From positions 1-64,000 of the forward strand of contig JAEUTH010000018.1 in the NCBI GenBank assembly GCA_016788165.1: a DNA stretch of 64,000 nucleotides, written 5' to 3'. The DNA is from Bacteroidia bacterium (GTDB taxonomy: Bacteria > Bacteroidota > Bacteroidia > AKYH767-A > OLB10). Shown here piece by piece: positions 639-2,803 of the stretch (its first letter is position 1; every line of letters begins with the position of its first letter). The notes under the pieces were generated by a model. It ran no database searches and was not told where the DNA came from. It was given only the letters and a program-made list of their open reading frames with translations. Both the position numbers and the translations under genes were made by a program.

Positions 639-1727
639 CTAATTAATTACCCTTACTTCAAAAACATAGGGTTGTAACGATTTTAACTGTTGTACACGGT
701 TTTGTTTGGATAATAAACGTTTGCCTGAATTAAAATGGTTACTGAAATCGTTTTCATTAATAGTTCGTAAAGCGTCAACTATATATGATGATTTGATAGC
801 AAAGGAAGCCGCTTCGGTACGCATTTGTTTGCCACTGATAACGCCAATTACATTGCCTTGTTCGTCAAACAATGGGCCACCACTGTTGCCCGGGTTAAGC
901 GGTACACTTACCTGATAGGCCATGGTATCGTCCATATAACCGGTAAGCGAGCTTATTGAACCTTCGCCATATACTAAGTTGGTGCGTGGGTAACCCAAAG
1001 TAAAAACTTTTTGGCCCATTTCGGCACGGTTCGAGTAGAAGTTATAAGGTATTTGTTTGGGTGCTTCGTACGAACTATCCTGAATTTTTAGTAATGCAAA
1101 ATCGCAAGTCGAGTTGGTTGCTATTACTTTAGCGCTATACGCATAACCTTCGTTAACTACTTCTATGTTATTGGCGTTTTGTACAATATGAAAACTGGTA
1201 ATTAAATAACCATTGGTGGTTACTAAAAAACTTGATCCACTGTAAATACCGGGTGCTGCCGGTTTTTTTGTAGTAGCCGATGTTATGGTATTAATGGTAT
1301 TATTAATAACGCCCTGCGATTTTTTTATTTGTGCTACTTCATTAACCAAAGCGCGATATCCTTTAGGAGCTTGATTTTTATAATACAAACTTAATATTAA
1401 TGCCGTTGAAAATATGCTTACACATGCTACCGATGCTGCTATGCTGATTACCCTTACATTTCTTTTTATAAAAGGAATTATTTTACCGCTAACCGGCTGT
1501 TGTACCGAGCCAGTGGTTTGCTGGTGTGCTTCGTTTAAGGCCGCTTTAATTTTTAGCCTTTTATTATAATGGTTTAATGCCGAGTAAAATGCAACATATT
1601 CATTTACCAATTTTGCATATGCTTTATTGGTATTTATTTCATGTTCAAAATGTTTTTGTTCATCAGCCAACATCTCGCCCTTAATATATTGTTCAACGCG
1701 GGCTGCAATGGTTTCATCTATTTGCAT
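639..1727 (-). CDS. Anti-sigma-like/HtrA-type membrane serine protease
   Basis: Begins at ATG 1727 (an in-frame GTG lies directly before it); about 362 residues. Residues 1-90 are helical and charged, and match the cytoplasmic head of Bacteroidota anti-sigma factors (ARVEQYIKGEMLADEQKHFE). A single membrane segment covers about 93-117. The rest is a periplasmic S1C trypsin-fold domain of the HtrA/DegS type. The triad is visible: H181 in LITSFHIV, D210 in CDFALLKI and S283 in NPGNSGGPLF (numbered from the GTG). No PDZ domain follows the protease. The gene lies 16 bases downstream of an ECF sigma-factor gene on the same strand, so the two are probably co-transcribed. Inference: the head binds the sigma factor while the protease senses or processes envelope damage. 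The head has no clear zinc-binding HxxxCxxC, so its anti-sigma role rests on position and general pattern. Confidence 0.85.
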   Translation of the reverse strand: MQIDETIAARVEQYIKGEMLADEQKHFEHEINTNKAYAKLVNEYVAFYSALNHYNKRLKIKAALNEAHQQTTGSVQQPVSGKIIPFIKRNVRVISIAASVACVSIFSTALILSLYYKNQAPKGYRALVNEVAQIKKSQGVINNTINTITSATTKKPAAPGIYSGSSFLVTTNGYLITSFHIVQNANNIEVVNEGYAYSAKVIATNSTCDFALLKIQDSSYEAPKQIPYNFYSNRAEMGQKVFTLGYPRTNLVYGEGSISSLTGYMDDTMAYQVSVPLNPGNSGGPLFDEQGNVIGVISGKQMRTEAASFAIKSSYIVDALRTINENDFSNHFNSGKRLLSKQNRVQQLKSLQPYVFEVRVIN

Positions 1728-1743
1728 CACAAGTAATATTTAA

Positions 1744-2313
1744 TTATTTAACCGGTGGTATGTATAGTTCAAAAAATAATTTTTTAAGCCTGTTCATACA
1801 CTTATATTTTTGATTTTTTGTGTTATCGGTATTGGTGTAATTGTACTTATTGGTTAAATCGGCCATGCTTAAATGATTAAAGTAATAATCATTAATCAAA
1901 CTTTGGCAGGGCTCTCCTAAGCTTAATAAAGCTTGTTTCATGCCATCAAATTGTTTTATCTCTTCTTCCATCCATTGCGCATCATCAGGTTCAATGGCAA
2001 AAAAATCATCACTATCGTTCAGGTTACCAACATACTTACTCTTACGGCTTAATTGCTTAAGCCATAAGTTACGGCAAATCGAATACAAATACGTTTTTAA
2101 AGAACTGGTAAGCACCAACTTATTGTCTAATATTTTTTCATAAATAACAATAATGCCTTCCTGGTAAATATCTTTTGCTTCCTGGGCATCACCGCCATTT
2201 AAAACAATGAGCTGCTGTATGCTTGCAAAATGCATTTTGTAAAACACGTTAAGCAAGCTTTGATTGTTTTGCCTAAATCCTTCTATAAAGTCGTTGTCGG
2301 TGTAAGTATCCAC
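1744..2313 (-). CDS. ECF RNA polymerase sigma factor
   Basis: 189 residues, the usual ECF length. Region 2 is recognisable in FIEGFRQNNQSLLNVFYKMH, then AKDIYQEGIIVIYEKI and TYLYSICRNLWLKQL. Region 4 is in the C-terminal third (LSMADLTNKYNYTNTDNTKN), which should form the helix-turn-helix that reads the -35 element. The start is GTG 2313; no ATG lies in frame near it. It redirects RNA polymerase to a small regulon. The gene precedes the anti-sigma-like protease and is preceded by the motif TGGGTTACCTTT-N11-GTATTAA, which also lies in front of the divergent lipoprotein gene. Autoregulation is therefore likely (inference). The predicted leader is very short, about 11 bases. Confidence 0.9.
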   Translation of the reverse strand: MDTYTDNDFIEGFRQNNQSLLNVFYKMHFASIQQLIVLNGGDAQEAKDIYQEGIIVIYEKILDNKLVLTSSLKTYLYSICRNLWLKQLSRKSKYVGNLNDSDDFFAIEPDDAQWMEEEIKQFDGMKQALLSLGEPCQSLINDYYFNHLSMADLTNKYNYTNTDNTKNQKYKCMNRLKKLFFELYIPPVK

Positions 2314-2330: not shown

Positions 2331-2360
2331 TTAATACATTAATTTAATAAAGGTAACCCA
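2331..2360 (-). promoter_or_regulatory. Putative ECF promoter of the sigma operon
   Basis: On the minus strand the sequence reads TGGGTTACCTTT, 11 bases, then GTATTAA. It ends 17 bases before the GTG of the sigma gene. The same two elements with the same 11-base gap occur on the plus strand at 2501-2530 before the lipoprotein gene. The first element would be the -35 and the second the -10 of an ECF promoter. The pattern is seen directly; the promoter role is inferred. Confidence 0.7.
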
Positions 2361-2500: not shown

Positions 2501-2530
2501 TGGGTTACCTTTTAATGTGTGCCGTATTAA
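2501..2530 (+). promoter_or_regulatory. Putative ECF promoter of the Ala-rich lipoprotein
   Basis: TGGGTTACCTTT (2501-2512), 11 bases, GTATTAA (2524-2530). Both blocks and the spacing match the promoter facing the other way at 2331-2360. The inner ends of the pair are about 140 bases apart. A start site near 2537 would leave a leader of about 30 bases before ATG 2567. This makes the lipoprotein the likeliest target of the neighbouring sigma factor. Confidence 0.7.
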
Positions 2531-2566: not shown

Positions 2567-2803
2567 ATGAAAAATTCAATCAAATTTATCGCTGTAGCTT
2601 TCGCATTAGCTACTGCTGTTGCTTGTTCATCAAACAAAGTTGCCGAAGGCACTGAAGCTGTTGATTCAGCTGCTGCTGCTGCAACTGAAGCTGCTGTAAC
2701 TACAATTGACTCGGCTGCTGCTGCTGCAACTGCTGTTGTTGATTCTGCTGCTGCTGCTGCTACAACTGTAGTTGATTCAGCTGCTGCTGCTGTTACTAAG
2801 TAA
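2567..2803 (+). CDS. Small Ala-rich repeat lipoprotein
   Basis: 78 residues. A lipoprotein signal ends at C20 (LATAVAC). The mature chain is almost entirely four near-copies of a roughly 13-residue unit, V/IDSAAAAATxxV, with single acidic and Ser/Thr positions. It should form a long amphipathic Ala-rich helix, loosely reminiscent of Lpp-type envelope proteins, but it lacks the terminal Lys-Arg-Tyr-Lys type ending and is not recognisably Lpp. Gene-level repeats of GCTGCTGCT accompany the protein repeats. It is divergent from the ECF sigma operon, carries the mirrored promoter, and is followed by two strong terminators, so it is probably expressed alone and highly. Envelope protection or spacer function is only a guess. 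Confidence 0.8.
   Translation: MKNSIKFIAVAFALATAVACSSNKVAEGTEAVDSAAAAATEAAVTTIDSAAAAATAVVDSAAAAATTVVDSAAAAVTK

Follow-up and report, generated by a model that had tools for sequence, protein, structure and literature searches.

An anti-sigma-like head joined to an HtrA/DegS-fold protease in one membrane protein encoded behind an ECF sigma factor gene of Bacteroidota

The fused gene and its protein

We analysed a stretch of 64,000 nucleotides from a Bacteroidia bacterium (contig JAEUTH010000018.1), referred to below as the window. Near its beginning, on the minus strand, lies a gene (639-1727; stop codon 639-641) that encodes a protein of 362 amino acids and has an alternative in-frame GTG start at 1730. 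A previous sequence-only reading had proposed that this single chain holds a cytoplasmic anti-sigma-like head, one membrane helix and, outside, an S1C protease with a full triad. The open reading frame, the strand and the coordinates agree with this proposal, and in the chain a helical head is followed by a single membrane helix and by an S1C protease whose triad is intact.

The putative cytoplasmic anti-sigma head comprises residues 1-75 (1503-1727; all parts of the protein are on the minus strand), on the evidence of AF2, of family profile tallies compared with shuffled heads and of a model of the sigma factor plus head, both described below. In the AF2 model of the fused protein, built with 88 relatives, the head forms three helices (residues 2-15, 21-33 and 35-73) with a pLDDT of about 89-96 per ten-residue block over most of their length. 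Hydropathy detects only one hydrophobic segment that could cross the membrane, at residues about 91-116, and the transmembrane helix is placed at residues about 92-116 (1380-1454). Its residues A97-A98 are invariant in 255/255 homologues. It is followed by a periplasmic stalk (residues about 119-160; 1248-1373), which combines a conserved helix (YxxLRREVxxIKxxQ) with a variable linker and would be the candidate region for self-cleavage. The S1C protease domain of the HtrA/DegS fold, which lacks a PDZ domain, spans residues 161-322 (762-1247). Finally, a conserved C-terminal tail (residues 339-362; 642-713) with R344 and Q347, predicted as a helix and a strand, occupies the place where a PDZ domain would stand. 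Overall, AF2 is confident about the head and the protease and less certain about the stalk; it also predicts a long membrane helix and the helix-strand tail, and the domains are loosely joined (pTM 0.57).

A Pfam scan assigns residues 164-296 to Trypsin_2 (6.6e-23) and finds no PDZ domain in the fused protein; nor is any other known sensor module present. Structural comparison places the protease among DegS, HtrA1, DegP and MucD: Foldseek matches it to HtrA1 (5e-12), and VIA-align superposes it on DegS-deltaPDZ (Z 19.9, 2.2 Å, 162 residues), a match that stops at about residue 326 and leaves about 36 residues after it. The catalytic residues are His180 (CAT, 1188-1190), Asp209 (GAT, 1101-1103) and Ser282 in the GNSGG motif (AGT, 882-884), and all three are intact in 255/255 headed homologues. 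The triad is thus the one described earlier as H181, D210 and S283, which had been counted from the GTG at 1730 and not from the ATG at 1727. The position of DegS H198 is mostly Pro in the fused proteases, as in the other HtrA proteases compared. Judged by fold and triad, the domain, modelled as a single chain, is an S1C/HtrA protease with a putative trimeric assembly and a putative proteolytic activity.

We also noted PDZ-less S1C proteases that have neither a head nor a sigma neighbour (L050:16-2133, L048, L049 and L051). They share the conserved C-terminal tail, and the tail thus belongs to the protease subfamily.

The sigma factor gene and the head

Sixteen nucleotides upstream of the fused gene lies the gene for its cognate ECF sigma factor (1744-2313, minus strand; 189 amino acids). 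Its product scores 46.8 bits against TIGR02937 (cut-off 42.9), and the sigma2 and sigma4 folds in a model of its homologue from an Adhaeribacter locus (L055) match ECF sigma factors. The earlier reading had noted the position of the fused gene directly behind this sigma gene, and the arrangement recurs far above chance: in 255/255 non-redundant full-length homologues with readable upstream DNA a sigma gene immediately precedes the fused gene and shares its strand, a count that leaves out two further full-length loci at contig ends. The gap between the two genes ranges from -169 to +156 nt with a median of 2 nt, and many of the pairs overlap. A survey of S1C proteases with such heads thus finds all those with readable upstream DNA paired with a sigma gene. 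Headed homologues without one, which would have spoken against the earlier reading, do not occur among the 255, and the 22 related proteases that served as control loci, none of which has a sigma gene beside it (0/22), lack the head. Moreover, BLAST clustering of open reading frames of at least 90 amino acids around 78 loci detects no other conserved neighbour. Since the sigma gene adjoins the headed copies only and no other neighbour of this size is conserved, the pair forms a unit, and head and sigma gene occur together. Separately, one relative (L154:1507-2514, plus strand), 95 nt behind its sigma gene, is without the first part of the head, owing to a truncation or a frameshift.

The fused protein occurs in one copy each in 284/301 and 232/246 genomes of two sampled families. 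Full-length relatives are found in 12/23 other genomes of the window's own family (one copy being truncated by the end of its contig) and in 55/61, 5/8, 4/4 and 4/10 genomes of four more families. In a class-wide sample 45/295 pass E ≤ 1e-60, and about 42 of these are full length. Among the named matches are Pedobacter, Mucilaginibacter, Sphingobacterium, Pontibacter, Hymenobacter and Rufibacter. The sigma factor and the fused protease are thus a single-copy, near-universal core pair in two sampled families of the Bacteroidota and present in several more.

To which family does the head belong? We scanned 54 diverse heads singly, with 54 shuffled heads as the control, and counted a family as touched at E ≤ 1. 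In Pfam, zf-HC2 is touched by 28 of the 54 heads (best 1.1e-3) and the next family by three. In NCBIfam, 17 heads touch the antisigma family NF052375 (best 6e-4) and 13 the anti-sigmaE family PRK13920 (best 8.8e-6). RskA_N is touched by two heads, as is DUF4880, which we take to be the N-terminal domain of FecR. None of the shuffled heads touches zf-HC2, NF052375 or PRK13920, and no family is touched more than once by them. None of the heads scanned was seen to pass the curated threshold of any anti-sigma family. Taken singly, the head from the window has no match to these families, and its first 90 residues yield nothing usable in Pfam; a search of the head profile against PDB sequences returns only chance helical matches, to PPAR. 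A zinc motif of the HxxxCxxC type is found in 0/255 heads. We therefore favour the view that the head is a class I anti-sigma domain, divergent and without zinc, an assignment that the profiles support for the family and not for the window's head by itself. The profile search thus bears out the anti-sigma-like character that had been proposed for the head, and a match to an unrelated domain, which would have contradicted it, was sought and not found: the profiles that the heads touch are those of anti-sigma families, which shuffled heads do not reach.

The matches to RskA_N and DUF4880, two heads each, would fit a head that regulates its sigma factor positively or in both directions, as some FecR- and RskA-type proteins do, so that the freed head fragment would be needed for sigma activity. 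A dual function is on record for RskA (PMC7509140). Matches to zf-HC2 and to plain anti-sigma families are, however, far commoner, and we consider such positive or dual regulation very unlikely.

Three other genes in the window's genome that follow sigma genes were noted alongside. One (L227:1373-2680, minus strand; C33), behind another sigma gene, encodes a 436-residue protein that is perhaps a tandem-headed anti-sigma factor; its N-terminus has no good Pfam match and seems to contain two copies of the head pattern (head HMM E 7.7e-4). The product of a second (L232:2724-4079, plus strand; C46), behind another ECF sigma gene, has a weak match to an outer-membrane beta-barrel and is possibly Dma-like. 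The third (L233:2897-3763, plus strand; C17), also behind another ECF sigma gene, encodes a protein that has a CHU_C type IX secretion domain at its end.

In many loci the sigma gene and the fused gene share a reading frame and are separated by nothing but stop codons, so that reading the stop as glycine yields a natural sigma-linker-head chain. We modelled such a read-through chain of the Adhaeribacter locus with AF2, using 41 paired rows and additional unpaired rows. The chain forms one confident assembly with a pLDDT of 89.8 and a pTM of 0.83, the latter being a value for the whole chain and not an interface score. Since the pTM of the fused protein is only 0.57, fusion in one chain does not by itself give a high pTM. 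Over sigma2 and sigma4 the model superposes on sigmaE bound to RseA with 11.9 Å (154 residues), on AlgU with MucA with 12.0 Å (157 residues) and on BldN with RsbN with 8.1 Å (136 residues). For ECF sigma factors in RNA polymerase the values are 16 to 21 Å, with 19.9 Å over 142 residues for the same sigmaE. The model is thus nearer to anti-sigma-bound than to polymerase-bound sigma factors, yet its rmsd to the former is still 8-14 Å. The structural matches listed for this model cover its sigma part only, and the lack of a solved anti-sigma factor among matches to the head carries no weight either way. The association of head and sigma factor, which had previously been deduced from sequence pattern and gene order, is well supported as a predicted complex, and the model, together with the comparison of sigma2 and sigma4, supports a complex that would sequester the sigma factor.

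Coevolution between sigma factor and head is not above that between sigma factor and protease, which the sigma factor cannot touch and which served as the control (mean-field DCA and pseudo-likelihood; 255 pairs, Neff about 174). Since phylogeny dominates the signal, this result counts for neither side. One might still read it, along with the weak matches of single heads to their families, as a sign that the head has no contact with the sigma factor, serves oligomerisation or localisation and is encoded by a gene that is merely co-transcribed. Such a head would have to be reconciled with a sigma gene that is adjacent in 255/255 loci, and only where a head is present, with the lack of any other conserved neighbour of at least 90 amino acids, with profile tallies that differ from those of shuffled heads and with the assembly at pTM 0.83. 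We regard it as highly improbable.

Promoters and a divergent lipoprotein gene

The sequence upstream of the sigma gene contains a motif, GGGTTACCTTTATTAAATTAATGTATTA (2332-2359, minus strand), that is found in 247/251 homologous upstream regions. GGTTAC is present in 249 of these 251 regions (9 expected), and GTATTA or a near form follows 15 or 16 bases on in 247, which gives the consensus GGGTTAC-N15/16-GTATTA. The distance between the motif and the start codon of the sigma gene is about 13 nt. It looks like an autoregulatory promoter of the ECF type, and we infer that this sigma factor reads promoters of the GGGTTAC type. A second copy, GGGTTACCTTTTAATGTGTGCCGTATTA (2502-2529, plus strand), is divergent and points to a gene (2567-2803, plus strand) for a small low-complexity lipoprotein of 78 amino acids with the lipobox AVAC. 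By position and promoter, this lipoprotein is a putative PG1828-family target of the sigma factor.

The two copies are the only exact matches in the window, where 0.04 are expected. The whole genome contains seven, including the two of this locus, and the reversed control gives six. The matches elsewhere in the genome lie inside open reading frames, save for one intergenic match before a cystathionine-beta-synthase-like gene (L370), which we judged to be due to chance.

The product of the divergent gene contains VDSAAAAAT repeats, consists to 69% of V, A, T, S and D and has almost no aromatic residues. The gene was found only through its promoter. A small low-complexity lipoprotein is encoded divergently to the sigma gene, in one to four copies, in 138/190 loci with enough upstream DNA, and in 132 of these 138 the copy nearest the sigma gene has a GGTTAC within 110 nt upstream. 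In two genomes in which none lies beside the sigma gene, a gene for a similar lipoprotein with the same GGTTAC-N15/16-GTATTA promoter is found elsewhere (L362:2002 and L363:2030, both minus strand). Of 30 divergent lipoproteins sampled, 23 match the PG1828 family (NF050142) at E ≤ 0.001, and two of six tested pass its cut-off of 50 bits; the window's own lipoprotein scores 15.2 bits. The promoter, the apparent lipoprotein target and the core status of the pair are additions to the sequence-only reading.

Inverted GTAACC elements occur in 190/251 sigma upstream regions, at preferred distances of -31 to -52 and of about -117. They outnumber the exact divergent promoters found and are possible operators or degenerate promoters.

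Proposed mechanism and related systems

The operon, the head family, the topology, the triad and the promoter with the genes behind it are read from sequence, and the sigma-head complex is predicted. From these elements we assemble a reading that we hold to be probable on balance, in which a one-protein anti-sigma factor and site-1 protease controls a small lipoprotein regulon. The cytoplasmic head would hold the ECF sigma factor encoded upstream at the membrane and presumably inhibit it, while the protease outside would be the sensor of the pathway and also make its site-1 cut. The signal would most likely consist of lipoproteins or envelope proteins that are misfolded or in the wrong place. 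Upon this signal, the protease may cut the stalk of its own or of a neighbouring copy, probably that of a neighbour in a trimer. A single RseP-like site-2 protease would then cut within the membrane and free the sigma factor. The window's genome contains one M50 gene for an RseP-type protease (PF02163, E 2.7e-58), and the two invariant alanines that lie in the membrane helix close to its cytoplasmic end would suit such a cut. Finally, the freed sigma factor would transcribe the operon that encodes it, together with at least one small PG1828-family lipoprotein gene, from GGGTTAC-N15/16-GTATTA promoters.

In this reading self-cleavage would be the trigger, and the main rival explanation differs on this point. 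The head may sequester the sigma factor while the fused protease serves mainly in envelope quality control, in which case release would follow from a change of shape or oligomer state that the membrane helix transmits, or from a cut by another protease. This explanation accommodates the head-sigma association, the best-supported step, as well as a stalk that is kept as a helix and not as one fixed cleavage motif; moreover, the headless secreted relatives with the same tail indicate that the protease works alone elsewhere. A passive sensor would, however, need neither the triad that is invariant in all headed copies nor one tethered protease per anti-sigma factor, and we consider this explanation rather unlikely.

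The divergent lipoprotein might be more than a target. It could act as the sentinel of the circuit, a flexible decoy substrate of the tethered protease that piles up next to it when lipoprotein export fails and so triggers self-cleavage and release of the sigma factor. We think this unlikely; were it true, the module would gauge lipoprotein trafficking with a lipoprotein, a promoter pair, a sigma factor and an anti-sigma protease encoded side by side.

In a large survey, only 6% of the ECF sigma factors of Bacteroidetes have class I anti-sigma neighbours (PMC7406223), a figure that fits our finding because standard profiles detect this head poorly. To what is established about the control of ECF sigma factors in Bacteroidota, the core pair adds a head that most searches miss and a promoter that can be read from 247 genomic loci, with a small, often multi-copy lipoprotein as the apparent target. 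The sensor, the anti-sigma factor and, if our inference holds, the site-1 protease reside in one chain, and the pathway can be tested by an S282A exchange combined with a promoter reporter. The literature searched contains no description of an anti-sigma factor fused to an S1C protease, and the pair is apparently undescribed, although the 2021 reclassification of ECF sigma factors may list it.

Several known systems share features with the module. The Dma proteins, dual membrane-spanning anti-sigma proteins of Bacteroides that reach the outer membrane (PMC13088901), are likewise anti-sigma factors of Bacteroidota with an unusual extracytoplasmic part. The fused protein, in contrast, ends in a periplasmic S1C protease with a short tail and has no part that spans the outer membrane. 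RsgI and FoxR/FpvR are self-cleaving anti-sigma factors (PMC12203970, PMC11637429). The proposed mechanism has in common with them an anti-sigma factor that is cut outside the membrane during signalling. A true S1C protease is attached here, whereas RsgI and FoxR/FpvR are not known to use a trypsin-like catalytic domain for their self-cleavage. The divergent lipoproteins sampled resemble the PG1828 family (NF050142) in size and layout but differ in being tied here to a dedicated ECF sigma factor and its promoter, often in several tandem copies.

With class I anti-sigma factors (zf-HC2, RskA, RseA and FecR) the protein shares a short all-helical cytoplasmic head, a transmembrane helix, a gene position after an ECF sigma gene and, as a prediction, a joint assembly with sigma2 and sigma4. 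It differs from them in that the zinc motif is absent (255 heads) and the profile scores are weak, and in having a full serine protease as the sensor part. With the HtrA/Deg S1C proteases (DegS, AlgW, MucD and HtrA1) it shares the chymotrypsin-like fold, the HDS triad and GNSGG, and it is anchored in the membrane as DegS is. A C-terminal PDZ domain is usual, if not universal, in this group; here a conserved tail of about 25 residues replaces it, and a cytoplasmic head is added at the N-terminus.

The closest parallel is the sigmaE-RseA-DegS-RseP pathway of E. coli, with which the module has in common an ECF sigma factor, an anti-sigma factor with one transmembrane helix, a periplasmic protease of the DegS fold held at the inner membrane and an RseP homologue in the genome. 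Anti-sigma factor and protease are separate proteins in E. coli, whereas here they form one open reading frame of 362 amino acids. Moreover, the fused protein lacks the PDZ domain of DegS, which leaves no switch by OMP peptides of the DegS kind, and its head is not recognised as RseA_N. Since both the separate proteins and the PDZ switch are absent, the module is not a member of the sigmaE-RseA-DegS system. We propose that it would work like an RseA/DegS pathway folded into one chain.
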